Assembly (NCBI GenBank): GCA_007117525.1
Contig: SKGJ01000355.1
Location: 1-10,650, forward strand
DNA length: 10,650 nt
From: Alkalimonas sp.
GTDB lineage: Bacteria; Pseudomonadota; Gammaproteobacteria; Enterobacterales; Alteromonadaceae
Reading direction: 5' to 3'
Each line of letters starts with the position of its first letter. The stretch's first letter is position 1. Position numbers and translations under genes: made by a program. Positions 3,720 to 10,577 of this stretch are shown piece by piece. The notes under the pieces were generated by a model. The model made no database searches, was not told the origin of the DNA, and saw only the letters and a program-made list of their open reading frames with translations.

Positions 3720-4742
3720 TTAAAGCGGAGAAAGGGAGGACTTGTTGCTGTACCAGGGCACATCGCACTCGTATCGGGTTACCAGGTGCTCAACACCAAG
3801 CGTCAGGGCGAACAGCGCCATCCGGATCACCACGCCATTGTCGGCCTGGCGGAAAATCGCCAGATTCGGATTCAGGTTCAGGTCGTTGTCGAGTTCGTTG
3901 GCATCCAACCGTGAGTCGCGTGGTAGTGGATGCATAATGACGGTGTTGGATTTGCAATGCTTGGTGTAAATATCCTGATTGAGCCGGAACTTGCCGCGAT
4001 ACAGGTTGGCTTCGTCTTTGCTGGCAAAGCGCTCTTCCTGCACCCGGGTTTGGTAGACAATATCGGCGGCCAGTTTGCCTTCCAGTGCATCGCTGAACTC
4101 AATGCTGTGGCCGGCGTTTTCGATGGCACTGACCACGCTATCTGGCATCGCCAGCTCGGTTGGAGAAATCAGGGTAAAACGAATGTTTTTGTACAGGCAC
4201 AGCAATTTTGCCAGTGAGTGCACGGTGCGGCCAAATTTTAAATCGCCAACCATGGCGATGTGCATGCCATCAATGCTTTGGCCGCTGGCTGCCAGCTCTT
4301 TTTCAATGGTAAAAAGGTCGAGCAGCGCTTGAGTTGGGTGTTCATTGGCGCCATCGCCCCCATTTAACACCGGCACCCGACTGCCTTCAGCAAATTCAGC
4401 CACTGAGCCAGAATGGGGGTGGCGCATCGCAATCACATCGCTGTAGCTGCTGAGCACCCGGGCGGTATCGAACAACGACTCGCCTTTGGCCAGAGCGGAG
4501 CTTTCCATGCCGGTGGTTTCTCGTACTTCGCCTCCCAACAGGTTAAAGGCGCAGCCAAAACTAACCCGGGTCCGGGTACTGGGCTCAAAGAATAGATTGC
4601 CCAAAATGGCGCCATCCAGCACCTTGGTGCGCTTTTGCCTGCTGGCATAAGGCTCCATGCTGCGGGCCACCTGAAATACCTGCGCAATGCGCTCGCGATC
4701 AAACTGATTGACGGAAAGAATATGCTGGCCTGTAAAGCTCAT
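3720..4742 (-). CDS. pyrB: Aspartate carbamoyltransferase, long single-chain type
   Basis: PyrB joins carbamoyl phosphate and aspartate to N-carbamoylaspartate, the first committed step of pyrimidine synthesis, in the cytoplasm. The carbamoyl-phosphate motif FFEPSTRTR lies at residues 51-59, followed by KGES (86-89), MRHP (106-109), HPTQALLDL (135-143), [12 protein letters not shown] (165-176), the aspartate-loop QTRVQEER (231-238) and HPLPR (271-275). The product is 340 residues, longer than the 311-residue E. coli catalytic chain and with an extra C-terminal tail; I recall Shewanella-type enzymes of similar size. No pyrI regulatory chain follows; hemL does, 16 nt downstream. The frame is open back to an ATG at 4892, but the extra 50 residues are Pro/Ser/Thr/His-rich, unlike the family. 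The ATG at 4742 gives the expected start ([14 protein letters not shown]) although its ribosome binding site is weak. Confidence 0.95.
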
Positions 4743-4817
4743 ACGCTGGTGCCTGTGATCTGAGGTGTGGCTGGGAGACGGCACCGGGGTTGCCGGGCAG
4801 TCCGTGTCTGGCTGGTC

Positions 4818-4833
4818 ATTATACGCTATAGCG
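4818..4833 (-). promoter_or_regulatory. Candidate pyrB promoter: TATAAT with adjacent 10-bp palindrome
   Basis: On the minus strand a perfect TATAAT runs from 4823 to 4818, 75 nt before the pyrB ATG. Immediately upstream (4833-4824) is the perfect 10-bp palindrome CGCTATAGCG, placed where an operator in the -10/-35 spacer would be. No good -35 hexamer is visible (CGCCTT at 17-nt spacing). Predicted transcription begins near 4811. A second minus-strand -10-like box, TATACT, lies at 4898-4893. Confidence 0.4.
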
Positions 4834-4892
4834 CAGGGGAAAGGCGAATGCTGTTCAGCCCTCGTTGTTTGAGTTTTCGCTGCTTTACTCAT

Positions 4893-4951
4893 AGTATAGA
4901 ATCAGGTTAGGTACTACTTTTAGTATTAATTTCAGCGAGTAATGGCCCTTT
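4893..4951. promoter_or_regulatory. AT-rich divergent promoter region between pyrB and pump operon
   Basis: This is the most AT-rich stretch between the divergent pyrB-hemL and pump units. Toward pyrB it offers TATACT at 4898-4893. Toward the pump operon it offers TATAGA at 4895-4900 and TATTAA at 4924-4929. None has a convincing -35 partner, so the exact start points are uncertain; the location is argued mainly from gene orientation. No terminator-like or riboswitch-like structure is seen. Confidence 0.3.
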
Positions 4952-5098
4952 ATGAGCACTATCCAAAGTGGCATCAACAGCACTGTCGAACAAGGTCTTC
5001 AATACCAGCTGGGTCGGTTCGCCGCTTTGAACTGGTTGTGGTGGCAGGGCGCGCAGCTCTGTGGTAGCGGGCAGGAGCAGCCACCCCATGCTGCTTGA
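4952..5098 (+). CDS. Possible 48-residue Trp-rich small protein before the pump operon
   Basis: An ATG-to-TGA frame of 48 codons lies in the leader of the pump operon and ends 11 nt inside the first pump gene. Its second half has a tryptophan cluster (Trp28, Trp30, Trp31) in a short hydrophobic patch and ends in a Gln/Pro-rich tail. The ribosome binding site of the first pump gene (AGGAG at 5073-5077) lies inside this frame, so translation through it could couple to that gene. Against it, the start has no clear Shine-Dalgarno sequence, no known family is recognised, and another frame (ATG 4942 to TAG 5067, 41 codons) is also open here. It may be a leader peptide, a small subunit or simply chance. 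Confidence 0.3.
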   Translation: MSTIQSGINSTVEQGLQYQLGRFAALNWLWWQGAQLCGSGQEQPPHAA

Positions 5099-5699
5099 AT
5101 GGGCTGTGCCAACCTTGCTTGGCGTTTTGCTGCTGCTGGCCGCTTTGGTCTCGGCTTTGATGCATCCGCTGCTGTGGTCTATCCGTGGCTACATCGGCTT
5201 TAGCCTGTTGTTGGCACTGGCCTGGGCCTGGTTGGGAGCTGTCGGGTTGGCGCTGGCCGAAGCGGTGATTGGGGCTGTTCTGACGGGAGCTCTGCTGATG
5301 CTGGCTCTATCCCGTCAAGTTGCCGTGGCACCGGCTTCGGTCAATCGTCTAAGCGGGCCAACCAGAGTGCTGCTGCTTGCTGGCTGCCTGCTGCTGAGCG
5401 CTGTGTTGGCATGGACTTTATGGCAAGGTCCAAAGCCGCACCTGTTCAGCCTTTGGCTGGCGCTGGTTTGGGGACTTTCCTGCTTCACTTTGGTGAATGG
5501 GCCAGAGCTGTTGCGGCGTGTGATTGCCCTGAACCTAATGGGGGCGGCGGTTTTTTCCGTGCTGGTGTTAGCGGCCAGTCAGGTGGATGCGATCGACAGC
5601 CGGCTCTATGGGTTGGTATTGATGGCGATGGTGATTGCCCTGGGGGCGACCGCATTGGCGCTGTGGCTGATCCACCGTCTTCAGGCGGAGTCCTTGTGA
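5088..5699 (+). CDS. Fused DUF4040 (MbhD/NuoJ-like) and MnhC/NuoK-like membrane subunit
   Basis: This 203-residue integral membrane protein seems to join two small subunits that are usually separate in Mrp antiporters and Mbh hydrogenases. Residues about 1-80 resemble the DUF4040 domain (MbhD, and the MrpA C-terminal region): helices at about 5-25, 30-50 and 52-74, with the conserved LGAVGLALAEAVIGAVLTGA segment (49-68) carrying Glu58. Residues about 120-200 resemble MnhC/NuoK: NGPELLRRVIALNLMGAAV (137-155), then a loop Asp and final helix (DSRLYGLVLMAMVIALGATAL, from 170), where the usual DPLPQALVLTAIVI has lost its Pro-Gln. A further helix at about 92-111 links the two. In complex I terms this is NuoJ plus NuoK, the hinge carrying the proton-coupling glutamates. 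The ATG at 5088 has AGGAG at 5073-5077; an in-frame GTG at 5061 would add nine polar residues. Its TGA overlaps the next start (GTGA). Confidence 0.75.
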   Translation: MLLEWAVPTLLGVLLLLAALVSALMHPLLWSIRGYIGFSLLLALAWAWLGAVGLALAEAVIGAVLTGALLMLALSRQVAVAPASVNRLSGPTRVLLLAGCLLLSAVLAWTLWQGPKPHLFSLWLALVWGLSCFTLVNGPELLRRVIALNLMGAAVFSVLVLAASQVDAIDSRLYGLVLMAMVIALGATALALWLIHRLQAESL

Positions 5700-7111
5700 G
5701 TCTGGTGCTGGTGGCTTTGGCATTGCCGCTGCTGGCTGCTGTGCTGGCTTTGTGCTGGCGCCGTCAAGCCGCCAGGCTGGTTTGGCTGGCGGCCTTGCTA
5801 AACCTGCCGCTGCTGGCTGTGGCCTTGTGGCAGGTGGTCACCTCAGGCTCACAGCCGTTGCTGCTTAGCAGCACAGAAACCGAGCTGCTGCATTGGCAAC
5901 TAACACCATTAACGGCTTTGCTGATGCTGCTGGTAGCAAGCATTCATTTTCTGGTCGCCAGTTACAGCCTCAGTCAATGGCGGTTTGCCGGCTTGTCCCT
6001 TTACTTTTGGCCACTGGCTGCGCTGGTGCAGAGTCTGTTTTTTGTGTTGTTGCTGTCGGCAGATCTCTTGTTTTGGTACCTGAGTATGGAACTGCTGGGG
6101 CTGGTGGCAGTTGCACTGGTGTTGCTGGCCGGGAAAAAAGCATGGCAGGCGGCGCTGCGCTATTTGTTGTTGTCTTTGGCCGGCTCGCTCAGTTTCTTAT
6201 TGGGCGTTGCACTACTTTACAGCCAGTACGGCAGCTTCGCATTGAGTGAGCTGACGCTGGGTATTGCAGCGTCCTCTGCCGATCCCCGGCTGGCACTTTG
6301 GCTGATGACCCTAGGTTTGATGCTCAAAGCCGCGCTCTGGCCCCTGCACTGGTGGCTGCCTGCGGCACACCTGGTCGCACCGGCCGCCGTCAGTGCTTTG
6401 CATGCGGGCTTGATCATCAAAGCCCCGCTTTTTCTGCTCTGGATGCTCTGGAGCCAACTGGCGACGCCAGCCATCGCTGAGGTTGGCAGTGTCTGGTTTT
6501 TGCTTACCGGCAGCCTGGCCTTGCTGGCGGGGGGCTGGTCGGCATTGCGCGCGCCTTTACCCAAGCTGATGATCGCCCATTCGACGGTCGCTCAGCTGGG
6601 TTATGGTTTATTGGCTTTAGGGCTGATGCTGTCACTGGCCGAACCGTCACTGGAACAGGCTTTTTGGCTCTTTATCATGGCGCATGGGCTGGCAAAAGCT
6701 GCAGCCTTCCTCGCCATTGGCGAAATGCAATTGCGCTTGGGCGGCAAGCGGCTGACGACCTTTCGTGGTGCCAGTCAAACCATGCCGCTGGCGATGTTTG
6801 CCCTGGCGGTCGCCGGTGGCAGCTTGATTGGTTTGCCACCCAGTGGCGGCTTTCTGGCCAAATGGCAATTGCTGGTGCCGCTGTGGCAGCAGAGCCAGTA
6901 CTGGCCTGTGCTGCTGGTGATCCTGCTCGGCACGCTGCTATCGGCCGGTTATGTGTTTCGTTTGGTGGTGCTGGCGTTTTACCGGGCACGGCCTCGTCCG
7001 GCCGGTTTTAAAGCACCTGTATTGCCGCAATGGCTGGCGCTAATGCCTGCCTTGCTGGTGTGGGGCCTGGCGTTGTTCAGCCTTCCTTTACTGCATTGGC
7101 TCGGAGGCTAG
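5696..7111 (+). CDS. Antiporter-like proton-conducting subunit 1 (NuoN/NuoM/MrpD family)
   Basis: This 471-residue protein with about 14 predicted helices belongs to the proton-conducting transporter family shared by complex I (NuoL/M/N), Mrp antiporters and Mbh/Hyf hydrogenases. The full channel signature is present: Glu132 in helix 5 (YLSMELLGL), Lys211 in helix 7 (LGLMLKAALWPLHWWLP), His236 and Lys242 around the broken helix 8 (VSALHAGLIIKAP), LPKLMIAHSTVAQLGY (288-303), His330 and Lys334 in helix 10 (AHGLAKAAAF), and Lys389 in broken helix 12 (GLPPSGGFLAKW). The start is GTG at 5696, overlapping the previous stop as GTGA, with GGAG at 5687-5690. The frame is open upstream to 5411 but that part only shadows the previous gene. 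The next gene starts 1 nt after its stop. It probably carries H+ or Na+/K+ across the cytoplasmic membrane; which ion cannot be read from sequence. Confidence 0.92.
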   Translation: MSLVLVALALPLLAAVLALCWRRQAARLVWLAALLNLPLLAVALWQVVTSGSQPLLLSSTETELLHWQLTPLTALLMLLVASIHFLVASYSLSQWRFAGLSLYFWPLAALVQSLFFVLLLSADLLFWYLSMELLGLVAVALVLLAGKKAWQAALRYLLLSLAGSLSFLLGVALLYSQYGSFALSELTLGIAASSADPRLALWLMTLGLMLKAALWPLHWWLPAAHLVAPAAVSALHAGLIIKAPLFLLWMLWSQLATPAIAEVGSVWFLLTGSLALLAGGWSALRAPLPKLMIAHSTVAQLGYGLLALGLMLSLAEPSLEQAFWLFIMAHGLAKAAAFLAIGEMQLRLGGKRLTTFRGASQTMPLAMFALAVAGGSLIGLPPSGGFLAKWQLLVPLWQQSQYWPVLLVILLGTLLSAGYVFRLVVLAFYRARPRPAGFKAPVLPQWLALMPALLVWGLALFSLPLLHWLGG

Positions 7112-7112
7112 C

Positions 7113-8612
7113 ATGGACTGGAACAGCTGGTTGCCACTCTGGGTCGTGCTCAGCTCCTTGCTGCCGGGCTTGTTGATTTTCACCCTGGCTGAAGATCGCT
7201 ATGTACTTCGTACCAGTCTGAATATGGGCGGCGTCCTGCTCAAGCTGGGCTTGGTGGGCTGGATGTGGCAAGGGGTTAAGGCCGGACAGGACTATTATTT
7301 CGAACTGCCTTTTTTACCCGGTGCACCGCTGGTGCTGCATGGCGATGCGCTGTCGATGCAATTTGTGTTGTTGTCGTCCGTGCTGTGGTGTGTCACCACC
7401 TTGTATGCCATTGGCTATCTGGAAGGCTCGCCACTGCGGTCGCGCTTTTTTGGCTACTTTAACCTCTGCGTCAGCGCCACGGTCGGGCTGGCTCTTTCCG
7501 GCAACCTGGTCAGTTTTGTGTTGTTTTACGAACTGTTGACGCTGGCCACCTTTCCTTTGGTGGTGCATCGGGGCACAGCCGCCGCTTTAAAAGCCGGCCG
7601 GCGTTATCTGGCCTATACCCTGACAGGCGGCACCGTCTTGCTGTTTGGTGCTGCCTTGCTCCACAGCCTGATCGGTAGCCCGGTGTTTATGCCGGGAGGC
7701 TATTTGCAGCCCTTGTTGGCTGAGCACAGTGGCGTGTTAACGCTGGCTTTTGTCTTGCTGATAGCCGGGCTAGGAGTGAAAGCTGCCTTGTTGCCTTTGC
7801 ATGGCTGGCTGCCAGAGGCCATGGTGGCACCGGCGCCGGTCAGTGCTTTGCTGCACGCTGTTGCTGTGGTCAAAGCCGGTGCTTTTGGCATTGTCCGGGT
7901 GGTGTACGATGTATTTGGTGTCGAGGTCATGCAACAGCTGGATCTGGGATGGCTGTTGGTGGTGCTGGCCAGCAGCACCATTTTGTATGGCTCCTGGCGT
8001 GCCTTGCAGCAACAGGATTTAAAGCGCCGGTTGGCGTACTCGACGGTGAGTCAAGTGTCCTATGTCACGTTAGGGGTTGCCATGCTTGGGCCTGTTGCGG
8101 CGATTGGCGGCCTGGTGCACCTGGTGCATCAGGGCGTGATGAAAATAACCCTGTTCTTTTGTGCCGGTAACTTTGCCGAGACGCTCGGGATCCACAAAAT
8201 TCAGGAGCTCAATGGTGTTGGGCGGCGCATGCCACTGAGCAGTACGGCCTTTACCCTGGGGGCAGCCGGCATGATAGGGCTACCAGCGACTGCTGGCATG
8301 CTTAGTAAATGGTATCTGGCGACCGGTGCCCTTGAGGCCGGTTACCCCTGGGTGCTCTTGGTGCTGCTTGGCTCCAGTGCCATGAATGCCATGTATTTTT
8401 TGCCTTTGCTGTACCGGATCTGGTTTTTACCGGCAGCACCCTGGCCGCAAGAGCGCGTTCTGTCCAACCGATTTGAAACACACTGGATGCTGTTGTTGCC
8501 ACCGGTGCTGACGGCCGCTTTGGTGCTGCTGATGGGGCTATTGGCCGGGACCGATATCAGCCCGCTGAGCTGGAGCAAACTGATTGTTGAGCGGGAGTTT
8601 AGCTATGACTGA
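7113..8612 (+). CDS. Antiporter-like proton-conducting subunit 2 (MrpD/NuoM family)
   Basis: This 499-residue, roughly 14-helix protein is the most canonical of the three pump subunits. Helix 5 carries Glu140 (FVLFYELLTLATFPLV). Helix 7 carries Lys223 (GLGVKAALLPLHGWLPEA). Helix 8 has His248 and Lys254 (PVSALLHAVAVVKAGAFG). The conserved DLKRRLAYSTVSQVSYV follows at 302-318. Helix 10 has His339 and Lys344 (HQGVMKITLFF), and helix 12 has Lys399 (GLPATAGMLSKW). The tail SSAMNAMYFLPLLYRIWF (421-438) is typical of MnhD-like proteins. Ribosome binding is strong (GGAGG at 7103-7107, 5-nt spacing). The last 8 nt overlap the next gene (ATGACTGA), so translation is probably coupled. In known complexes such subunits work beside MrpA/MrpC or NuoK/NuoL; here the partners would be the fused subunit and the two sibling proteins. 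Confidence 0.94.
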   Translation: MDWNSWLPLWVVLSSLLPGLLIFTLAEDRYVLRTSLNMGGVLLKLGLVGWMWQGVKAGQDYYFELPFLPGAPLVLHGDALSMQFVLLSSVLWCVTTLYAIGYLEGSPLRSRFFGYFNLCVSATVGLALSGNLVSFVLFYELLTLATFPLVVHRGTAAALKAGRRYLAYTLTGGTVLLFGAALLHSLIGSPVFMPGGYLQPLLAEHSGVLTLAFVLLIAGLGVKAALLPLHGWLPEAMVAPAPVSALLHAVAVVKAGAFGIVRVVYDVFGVEVMQQLDLGWLLVVLASSTILYGSWRALQQQDLKRRLAYSTVSQVSYVTLGVAMLGPVAAIGGLVHLVHQGVMKITLFFCAGNFAETLGIHKIQELNGVGRRMPLSSTAFTLGAAGMIGLPATAGMLSKWYLATGALEAGYPWVLLVLLGSSAMNAMYFLPLLYRIWFLPAAPWPQERVLSNRFETHWMLLLPPVLTAALVLLMGLLAGTDISPLSWSKLIVEREFSYD

Positions 8613-10125
8613 GTGGACGCTATGGCTTTGGCCGGGTGCCAGTTATGCGCTGCCGCAGGGGCCAATGGTGTTCTGGTTCGGTTTTACCTTGTTGCTCTGG
8701 TGCTGTGCGGCGCTATACAGCATGCAAACCATCCAAAGCCGGAAAAGGTTGTACTGGATCAGTTTTGTTCTGGCGATGCTCGGCAACCTGCAGCTGCTGC
8801 TGGCGCAGGATGTGTTGGGGTTTTACCTTGGGTTTGCGCTCATGAGTTTGTCGGCCTATGGGCTGGTGATCCATCGTGGCGATAAAACGGCCCGGCAGGC
8901 CGGGCGACTCTATTTACAACTGGCAATCCTTGGTGAATTGCTGCTGTTTGCGGGCTTGTTGCTCCGGGTGGATGCGGCTGAGGGGGCATTGCTGATTGCC
9001 AATCTGCAAAGCATTGAGCTTACCCCGCTAACTCTGACCTTGTTGCTGTTGGGCCTGGGCTTAAAAGCTGGCTTTTTCCCGCTGCACATCTGGTTGCCGT
9101 TGGCACATCCGGCGGCTCCGGTCCCCGCCAGTGCGGTGTTGTCCGGCGCTATGATCAAAGCGGGCTTGTTGGGCTTGTGGCAGTTTTTGCCGGCTCAGGA
9201 TCCGCTGCTCGTATCCTGGTTGCCGGGCTTGGCATTGCTGGCGTTGGGCTCTGCATTGTTTGGCGCTCTGATCGCCTTGCTGCATCAGAGCAGCAAGGTG
9301 GTGCTGGCGTACTCGTCGGTCAGTCAGATGGGCTATATGCTGTTGGCGCTGGTGCTGTATTGGGCCAGCCCGCTTGAGCTGCAAACGGCTGCTACCTGGC
9401 TGCTGGTTGGGTATTGCTGCCATCATGCTTTGCTGAAATCGGCGTTGTTTCTGGCTGCTGGCTCTGTCAATCACTACCGTTTATCCACCTGGCATGGTGC
9501 CTTGCTGCTTTGGCCACTGTTAAGCCTGGTAGCGCTACCGCTCAGCTCTGGTGCCATGGTGAAATATGGCTTGAAGCAAGGGGTGTCCGAAAGCAGCTTA
9601 CCTGCTTTACCGCTGCTCGATGCACTGCTTGCTTTCGGTGCTTTGTGCACCGCCTTGCTGGCGCTTCACTGGTTGCGTCTGGCCAAAGCACAGTGGCAGC
9701 TGCCGGGACCTTCGCTGCCAGGGACAGCCAGCCTGGCCTGGGGGATCCTGGTGCTGGCTTCGCTCAGCATGCCAGGCTGGTTCGCTGCTTTGCGGCCGCA
9801 GTGGTTGGCCAGTTTGAGTTTTAGCGCGGTGCTGGCGGCGCTCTGGCCGGTTGCCTTGGCGCTGTTGCTGCACTGGGGCTGGCAGCGCAGCGGTTGGCAA
9901 CTAGCGGCCGCCTGGCAACAGCCCAGAAGTCCGGCCCTTGGCTGGTCTTTGTGGCTAAAAGCAGGTTATCAAAGCAGAAGTCGTGCACTACCTGTGCTCA
10001 GATTGCCAGCCTGGCGGCAGAGTGAGCGCTGGCTCAATCGCCGTTTGGCAACAGAGTCTTTGCTGCCTGGGGTCTGTGCACTGCTGCTCAGTTTGCTGTT
10101 GTTGCTGTGGCTGCTGAGTGGCTGA
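8605..10125 (+). CDS. Divergent antiporter-like subunit 3 with short N-terminus and C-terminal extension
   Basis: This 506-residue membrane protein keeps most of the family core: Lys154 in helix 7 (GLGLKAGFFPLHIWLPLAH), Lys185 in helix 8 (VLSGAMIKAGLLGLW), SSKVVLAYSSVSQMGYML (229-246), His273, His274 and Lys278 in helix 10, and Lys320 in helix 12 (SSGAMVKYGL). Three things are unusual. The helix-5 glutamate is replaced by Ala78 (FYLGFALMSLSAYG, codon GCG at 8836-8838). The helix-5 site lies 54-62 residues nearer the N-terminus than in its siblings, so helices 1 and 2 are missing. About 186 residues follow Lys320, against 82 and 100 in the siblings; they include a polar, Arg/Trp-rich amphipathic stretch (about 428-485) and a final helix (486-505), reminiscent of the NuoL lateral-helix tail. 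ATG 8605 has GGGAG at 8593-8597 and overlaps the previous gene by 8 nt. It is probably a structural or modified pump subunit. Confidence 0.88.
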   Translation: MTEWTLWLWPGASYALPQGPMVFWFGFTLLLWCCAALYSMQTIQSRKRLYWISFVLAMLGNLQLLLAQDVLGFYLGFALMSLSAYGLVIHRGDKTARQAGRLYLQLAILGELLLFAGLLLRVDAAEGALLIANLQSIELTPLTLTLLLLGLGLKAGFFPLHIWLPLAHPAAPVPASAVLSGAMIKAGLLGLWQFLPAQDPLLVSWLPGLALLALGSALFGALIALLHQSSKVVLAYSSVSQMGYMLLALVLYWASPLELQTAATWLLVGYCCHHALLKSALFLAAGSVNHYRLSTWHGALLLWPLLSLVALPLSSGAMVKYGLKQGVSESSLPALPLLDALLAFGALCTALLALHWLRLAKAQWQLPGPSLPGTASLAWGILVLASLSMPGWFAALRPQWLASLSFSAVLAALWPVALALLLHWGWQRSGWQLAAAWQQPRSPALGWSLWLKAGYQSRSRALPVLRLPAWRQSERWLNRRLATESLLPGVCALLLSLLLLLWLLSG

Positions 10126-10152
10126 GCCGCTGTTTTAAAGCCAGCCACTCAG
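10114..10152. terminator. 11-bp inverted repeat between convergent pump operon and hemJ
   Basis: CTGAGTGGCTG at 10114-10124 pairs exactly with CAGCCACTCAG at 10142-10152, with a 17-nt loop. The arms include parts of both stop codons (pump TGA 10123-10125 and hemJ TGA 10151-10149). Placement between convergent genes suits a bidirectional terminator. However, no run of T follows on either strand (only TTT at 10155-10157 on the plus strand), so an intrinsic terminator is not certain. Confidence 0.4.
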
Positions 10153-10577
10153 GGTTTGAGCACTGCCAGCAAGATGGTGGCAAACAAAATCAGCACTGGC
10201 AGCTCATTGAACCAACGGTAAAAACGGCCACTACGGCTATTTTTATCGGCTTTAAAGTCGGCCAGCAGCTTAAAGCAATAGCCGTGGTAGCCGTACAACA
10301 AGACCACCAACAGCAGTTTGTAATGCAGCCAGCGGCTGGCACGAAACCAGTCCATGCCGTATGCCTGGATCAGAAGTAGGCCAAACACCAGCGTCAGAAT
10401 GGCAAAGGGGGTTACAAAGAACAATAAGCGACGCTCCATCACTTTGAATTGTGCCTGAATCTCCGTGTTGCTGGTTTCTGCGTGGTAGACAAAAAGTCTT
10501 GGCAAGTAAAAAATGCCGGCAAACCAGGCCACCATAAAAATCAGATGCAAGGCTTTGTAGAGCAATACCAGGGTCAT
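10149..10577 (-). CDS. hemJ: Protoporphyrinogen IX oxidase, HemJ type
   Basis: HemJ is the small membrane-bound enzyme that oxidises protoporphyrinogen IX to protoporphyrin IX, the penultimate step of heme synthesis, in bacteria lacking HemG and HemY. The 142-residue length and four helices (about 3-24, 49-71, 83-105, 124-140) match the family. Visible signatures are His11 in helix 1, FAGIFYLPRLFVYHAE (19-34), MERRL (47-51), WLHYKLLLVVLLYGYH (83-98) and RWFNELPVLI (121-130). It is preceded by AAGGAG at 10594-10589 with 11-nt spacing. Its ATG overlaps the stop of a probable upstream frame as ATGA. It converges on the pump operon, 23 nt from its stop. It is the second heme gene in the window, but on a different transcript from hemL. 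Confidence 0.93.
   Translation of the reverse strand: MTLVLLYKALHLIFMVAWFAGIFYLPRLFVYHAETSNTEIQAQFKVMERRLLFFVTPFAILTLVFGLLLIQAYGMDWFRASRWLHYKLLLVVLLYGYHGYCFKLLADFKADKNSRSGRFYRWFNELPVLILFATILLAVLKP

Follow-up and report, generated by a model that had tools for sequence, protein, structure and literature searches.

Loss of the sodium-translocation genes from a group 3-type Mrp operon in one Alkalimonas lineage, and a putative role for the four-gene remnant

Results

Gene organization and domain content of the locus

The DNA analysed here, a stretch of 10,650 bases from an Alkalimonas genome (hereafter the window; the assembly, G000, consists of 435 contigs and is 71.6% complete), carries four plus-strand genes whose ends overlap or almost touch and which occupy positions 5088-10125. 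As described below, they are what is left of an Mrp operon that has lost its sodium-translocation genes. The first, gene A (5088..5699, 203 amino acids), codes for a fusion protein in which a DUF4040/MbhD half (NuoJ-like, corresponding to the C-terminal part of MrpA) is joined to an MrpC/NuoK-like half. The other three encode antiporter-like subunits with the Proton_antipo_M domain, referred to as D1 (gene B, 5696-7111), D2 (gene C, 7113-8612) and D3 (gene D, 8605-10125). D1 comes directly after MrpC in gene order, and its GTG start overlaps the TGA stop of gene A; for D3 an alternative TTG start is open at 8584.

In the domain scan, which took in nine open reading frames (ORFs) of the window, D1, D2 and D3 matched PF00361 with 147.8, 185.7 and 120.7 bits (cut-off 21.5), and the N-terminal half of A matched PF13244 with 35.9 bits (cut-off 27.2). 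The C-terminal half of A reached 21.6 bits with PF00420, under the cut-off of 26.1, and no match to PF04039 or PF20501 was found in gene A. With profiles made from four relatives, gene A scored 59.2 bits for AB (the DUF4040+MnhB protein) and 71.2 bits for MrpC. An earlier note on this DNA had described four tightly coupled genes for a DUF4040+MnhC/NuoK-like fusion and three NuoL/M/N-type subunits. The scores agree with that description, PF00361 and PF13244 directly, and the NuoK-like half through the MrpC profile of the relatives, its Pfam score being too low. The note had also claimed that partner genes are absent and that opposite-strand genes bound the operon on both sides, and both claims held. 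None of the nine ORFs contained an MrpB, MrpE, MrpF, MrpG, NuoH or hydrogenase domain; neither was DabA (DUF2309) found among them, no genome-wide search for it being made. With lengths of 471, 499 and 506 amino acids D1, D2 and D3 are too short for MrpA, and therefore the locus has no MrpA gene.

The bounding minus-strand genes encode, by domain scan, a carbamoyltransferase and a class-III aminotransferase upstream and a UPF0093 protein downstream; these are presumably pyrB, hemL and hemJ. PyrB would occupy 3720..4742 if the conserved MSFTGQ start is taken, and hemJ 10149..10577. The same two flanks are found in a sister metagenome-assembled genome (MAG; contig L025, named Alkalimonas MAG, from genome G001, which is 81% complete) and in three other Alkalimonas loci, L026 (A. 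amylolytica), L027 and L028. L025 aligns to the window across all 10,650 bases with 98% DNA identity, thus the arrangement is no accident of one assembly. An assembly or chimera artefact was ruled out, the same joint within gene A being present in L025; moreover, L027, which shares the isolate-name prefix Super_Day4 with L025, carries the full form of the operon.

The full operon in related genomes

Relatives were gathered by scanning a species-genome collection with a 16-row alignment of D3, and the counts refer to the best 80 of 139 relatives, those for E, F, G, AB and C resting on one-round profiles. MrpE, MrpF, MrpG, the DUF4040+MnhB protein and MrpC followed each other in order in 74 of the 80 loci, and D1, D2 and D3 were present in the same 74. 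The full order, MrpE-F-G-[DUF4040+MbhE+MnhB]-C-D1-D2-D3, is that of a group 3-type Mrp. Four of the other six loci (L042, L058, L065 and L071) were cut by a contig end, and the real exceptions were two, L025 and L060, the latter carrying D1 and D3 only. In A. amylolytica the Pfam matches were PF01899, PF04066 and PF03334, then PF13244, PF20501 (15.4 bits, below the cut-off of 27) and PF04039 in one protein, then PF00420. The full operon of L026 and L027 occupies the same pyrB-hemJ interval as the four genes of the window, and that of L028 also lies between pyrB and hemJ, although there additional genes intervene and the operon is set off by approximately 3.3 kb upstream of mrpE and 2.1 kb downstream of D3. 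An independent minimal system, one of two readings offered by the earlier note, is ruled out by these observations: relatives carry E/F/G/B in the same interval, and MrpE/F/G with the DUF4040+MnhB protein adjoin the operon in the 74 loci.

A survey of 395 genomes of the family led to the same picture. D3 was found (E < 1e-60) at 53 places in 52 genomes, and MrpG was located near it (same strand, within 8 kb) in 49 of the 53. The four places without MrpG were the window, the sister genome G001, G357, where the contig ends just upstream of MrpC, and G307, which has an isolated D3 piece with stops. In a D2 tree of 24 rows the window and L025 were nested inside Alkalimonas, with ultrafast bootstrap/SH-aLRT support of 100/100 for the pair, 91/87 for the pair with L026-L027 and 100/99 for the genus. 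We regard it as virtually certain that the four genes arose by reduction from a full Mrp operon.

Other departures from the full form were seen in the same set. The locus of the Pseudomonas MAG CSMAG_1243 (L060:7399-10476) is a smaller remnant with D1 and D3 open, and the same assembly holds a full operon (L029); this is a separate reduction. In L135, L136 and L137, which belong to other genera and still have E, F and G upstream, D2 and D3 form a single fused protein of 1,073-1,093 amino acids. At about 8707-9480 of L150 a decayed D3-like piece with stops stands by itself, the 14-kb stretch that contains it giving no match for E, F, G, AB or C.

Extent of the loss

Compared with A. amylolytica, the window and L025 lack MrpE, MrpF, MrpG, MnhB and most of MbhE, which amounts to approximately 1.56 kb. 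By DNA alignment, the distance from pyrB to the DUF4040 core is 967 bases shorter in the window than in L026, and the distance from DUF4040 to MrpC is 593 bases shorter, DNA matches stopping at 5297 and resuming at 5499. The mrpE-mrpF-mrpG site of the relatives corresponds here to a short plus-strand stretch (4743..5087) preceding gene A. DNA and protein alignments place the fusion joint at approximately 5427..5441, where the remainder of MbhE and the entire MnhB domain of full-length relatives are missing. At least two deletions would have removed the lost parts, the second one leaving an open fused frame.

In P. furiosus, MrpB, E, F and G are assigned to the sodium-translocation module and MbhD, MbhE, MrpC and MrpD to the proton-translocation module (PMC8415708). 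The window locus thus lacks the whole sodium-translocation set, plus most of MbhE from the proton-translocation set.

No sigma-70-like promoter or terminator was found in 4600-5300, and no RNA family reached its gathering score in the window. Further upstream, positions 336-2417 encode a large protein that begins with a winged-helix (Trans_reg_C) domain, followed by a long C-terminal part; it presumably resembles membrane regulators of the ToxR/CadC type.

Gene A and the antiporter-like subunits

The halves of gene A are bridged by what aligns as one retained MbhE helix. A structure model has seven helices; it is of low confidence (mean pLDDT 62.1, pTM 0.40), its input alignment supporting the first half only. 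The loop charges, read by eye, suggest that both halves have their usual orientation. The best solved-structure matches by sequence, 6u8y_D (E 8e-4) and 6cfw_D (E 0.004), were both weak. Among 7,999 scored candidates the fused protein had ten matches, of which only one, the window's own cluster, gave full coverage, the others covering 11-49%; in this search the fusion was found only in this lineage. Gene A retains the Glu of the MbhD half as E58. It has changed at 10 of 25 near-invariant sites (95% level) in the MrpC half and at 5 of 21 in the DUF4040 half. Window and L025 have a Met in the C-terminal half at a position where the MrpC of relatives has Thr in 78/78 rows (picked by profile), and we take this Thr, by its motif, to be MrpC T75.

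The top solved-structure match by sequence was the same for D1, D2 and D3, namely 6cfw_H of the archaeal MBH of P. furiosus. Like 78/78 relatives, D1 and D2 retain the Glu of transmembrane helix (TM) 5 and the Lys residues of TM7, TM8 and TM12, and D3, like 79/79 relatives, retains three Lys and the Glu of TM6; the helix numbers are those we presume from alignment to known subunits. In D3 the TM5 position is occupied by a residue other than Glu in 16/16 aligned members, the invariant Glu being located in the next helix, and its channel may work differently from those of the canonical TM5-Glu subunits. Several substitutions in D1 flank the retained TM5 Glu (E131 if the GTG start is not counted) and TM8 Lys (K241). 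Gene order and evolutionary rates point to D1 as the subunit nearest to the lost module; D2, however, is closer than D1 to 6cfw_H in sequence (160 versus 132 bits).

Selection on the remaining genes

All four frames are intact in both assemblies. Between the window and L025 the ratios of nonsynonymous to synonymous changes were 9:9 (A), 9:25 (D1), 1:26 (D2) and 9:12 (D3), each indicating purifying selection (one-sided binomial p = 0.04, 2e-8, 2e-14 and 0.003, respectively). At sites conserved to at least 98%, D1 of the window has changed 17 of 122, whereas L026, L027 and L028 have changed 4/126, 5/126 and 2/123. The corresponding values for the strongly conserved D2 were 2/203 (window), 3/206, 3/206 and 0/203, and for D3 1/70 in the window and 0 in each of the other three. 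Relative-rate tests comparing the window with L026, L028 serving as outgroup, gave 76 versus 34 changes for D1 (p = 6e-5), 24 versus 20 for D2 (p = 0.55) and 41 versus 28 for D3 (p = 0.12); when three further outgroups were used, p was 0.0008-0.012 for D1 and above 0.3 for D2 and D3. Judged from these sequences, reworking has affected A and the accelerated D1 but not D2 or D3.

The operon might also be decaying since the loss of an essential module, as the dN/dS value of 0.38 for A and the many near-invariant sites changed in its two halves could indicate. The intact frames in both assemblies, the 26 synonymous changes against a single nonsynonymous one in D2, the unaccelerated D3 and the four key residues kept in D1 argue against this, and we consider decay improbable. 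The remnant does not look decayed, and its four genes very probably have a maintained function.

Possible partners elsewhere in the genomes

A pump arm with the subunit set seen here could in principle dock on a redox partner encoded elsewhere, a possibility raised by the earlier note, and the set does resemble NuoJ-K-L-M-N. No redox arm was found at the locus and no hydrogenase domain among the nine ORFs, neither the redox-arm nor the hydrogenase families having been searched genome-wide. PF00146 (the NuoH/HycD family) matched in 0 of 6 Alkalimonas genomes, with a positive control in 11 of 14. The absence of a NuoH/HycD-type gene from six genomes of the genus, taken with an ancestor that was a stand-alone Mrp, makes docking very unlikely, even though the genome of the window is 71.6% complete and redox-arm families were left out of the search.

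The sister genome G001 contains a canonical MrpAB-C-D-E-F-G operon on its contig C51. In G000, C212 bears the beginning of such an operon, C312 has a different MrpG end, and C57 encodes a 758-amino-acid PF00361 protein that is MrpA-like by size, from which it seems that the cell keeps a normal Mrp apparatus. G000, at its 71.6% completeness, gave no match to PF01899 or PF04066 and a single PF03334 fragment, at the end of another contig; in G001 (81%) the matches to PF01899 and PF04066, and the MrpG copy as well, were confined to the canonical operon on C51. A relocated E/F/G/MnhB module was not seen in either genome at these levels of completeness; if losses from the two assemblies are independent, the chance that such a module escaped both would be about 5%.

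These canonical operons open another explanation, namely that the remnant borrows MrpE/F/G/B from them and acts as an ordinary antiporter. The canonical E/F/G/B, however, belong to another Mrp type, most of MbhE has gone from A, and many conserved positions of A and D1 have changed, all of which makes borrowing quite improbable.

Discussion

The operon of the relatives is of a described kind. Group 3 Mrp is characterized in PMC8415708 by MrpD-type subunit(s) and no MrpA gene, and the relatives have the order of the P. furiosus group 3 operon mrpEFGBB'CD reported there, with two additional D genes. The mrp locus of 'Ca. Nitrospira alkalitolerans', in which two NuoM/L-like genes are described after mrpD (PMC7784846), represents this parent type. 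The window shares with group 3 Mrp the MbhD, MrpC and MrpD-type subunits and the absence of MrpA; it differs in lacking MrpE, F, G, MnhB and most of MbhE, and in the fusion of DUF4040 to MrpC. With the membrane arm of complex I (NuoJ, K, L, M, N) it has a homologous subunit set and channel residues in common, but there is no NuoH/NuoA or peripheral arm and the ancestry is Mrp. The best structure matches of the window proteins are to the proton-translocation module of the P. furiosus MBH/MBS complexes, whose redox/hydrogenase module has no counterpart in the window. Judged by its nine scanned ORFs, the locus is neither a complex I, nor an MBH/Hyf/Ech-type hydrogenase, nor a DAB system (three PF00361 genes versus a single DabB). 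The closest man-made analogue is the laboratory deletion of mbhABC, the E/F/G homologues, in P. furiosus (PMC8415708). Among the open-licence papers listed, none was recognised as describing an Mrp remnant of four genes, and the stripped form appears to be new, though not a stand-alone class. What survives of the earlier note is that proton-side modules stand alone at the locus in one lineage; they do so by loss, and look maintained.

Two residues of the parent protein, D149 and E153, were located in the lost piece of MbhE; both are present in at least 97% of 77 rows, and by their motif we take them to be MrpA D792 and E796. For the A. flavithermus Mrp, Na+ was proposed to enter near MrpE/G, to pass MrpF D35 and MrpA E706, and to leave at MrpA D792/E796, with MrpC T75 facing E796 (PMC7419157). 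According to PMC9568556 the published Na+ models are mutually exclusive, and an alternative exit involves MrpA Glu780 and MrpB Phe41; the regions matching these two residues would also be missing at the window locus. Single losses need not abolish activity, since the T75A mutant of MrpC kept normal antiport activity, although sodium resistance was incompletely restored, and MrpE is reported to be dispensable in B. subtilis (PMC5703873). The lost Thr of gene A thus proves little by itself. There is also precedent for Na+/H+ exchange with fewer than seven subunits, as Mrp-type activity was reported from one MrpA-type subunit in Nt-Nha, which is homologous to MrpA and MrpD, and in M. acetivorans MrpA (PMC5703873); those are MrpA-type subunits, whereas the window encodes three of the MrpD type and an MbhD-MrpC protein.

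Taking these observations together, we consider it probable that a group 3-type Mrp was reduced in one Alkalimonas lineage to a selected proton half stripped of its other module. The remainder would correspond to the proton-translocation module and consist of three MrpD-type subunits and one protein, with probably seven helices, that unites MbhD and MrpC. We infer that the four proteins still work as a membrane complex. Its three proton channels would be linked and would retain their coupling to the MbhD Glu (E58 of A) and the TM5 Glu of D1, and the complex could serve as a pH-homeostasis device driven by the proton motive force. Its most likely form would be a simplified cation/H+ exchanger with the cation step shortened to the A-D1 interface; failing that, it could be a gated proton pathway. 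Residual cation/H+ exchange by the remnant is put forward as a tentative proposal with slightly less than even prospects.

The complex might instead conduct protons only, as a gated uptake or leak path or as a pH sensor, which could be useful to an alkaliphile that has to import protons. Such a role would fit the loss of the published Na+ entry (E/F/G) and exit (the MbhE D/E pair and MrpB) and the retention of every tested Lys in the three antiporter-like subunits. An ungated path, on the other hand, would dissipate the proton motive force, and the Na+ routes on which the argument depends are disputed (PMC9568556); we think proton-only conduction unlikely. A related and rather less doubtful possibility is a naturally evolved, proton-only complex I-like arm that has shed its Na+ module and been rewired at A and D1. 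This four-polypeptide complex would respond to the proton motive force and could do without both a redox arm and the classical Na+ path; either protons would be coupled to a different ion where A meets D1, or they would be gated alone.

Several points weigh against a working, reduced Mrp. Mrp as a rule needs its complete set of subunits, and a subcomplex lacking E, F and G is reported to be inactive (PMC5703873). The reduced form is known from two assemblies only, 71.6% and 81% complete. The dispute over Na+ routes in Mrp (PMC9568556) touches this interpretation as well. Finally, the 9:9 ratio of gene A is worse than the 12:67 of full-length AB + C between L026 and L027 (Fisher p = 0.003), so that gene A may be in early decay.

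The path of Na+ through Mrp and MBH is disputed, as is the autonomy of the proton half (PMC9568556). A lineage that at this locus has lost the Na+ half, has kept the channel residues and is still under selection amounts to a natural deletion experiment. In A. amylolytica the same site holds the intact operon, so that each remaining subunit has a counterpart there for comparison.

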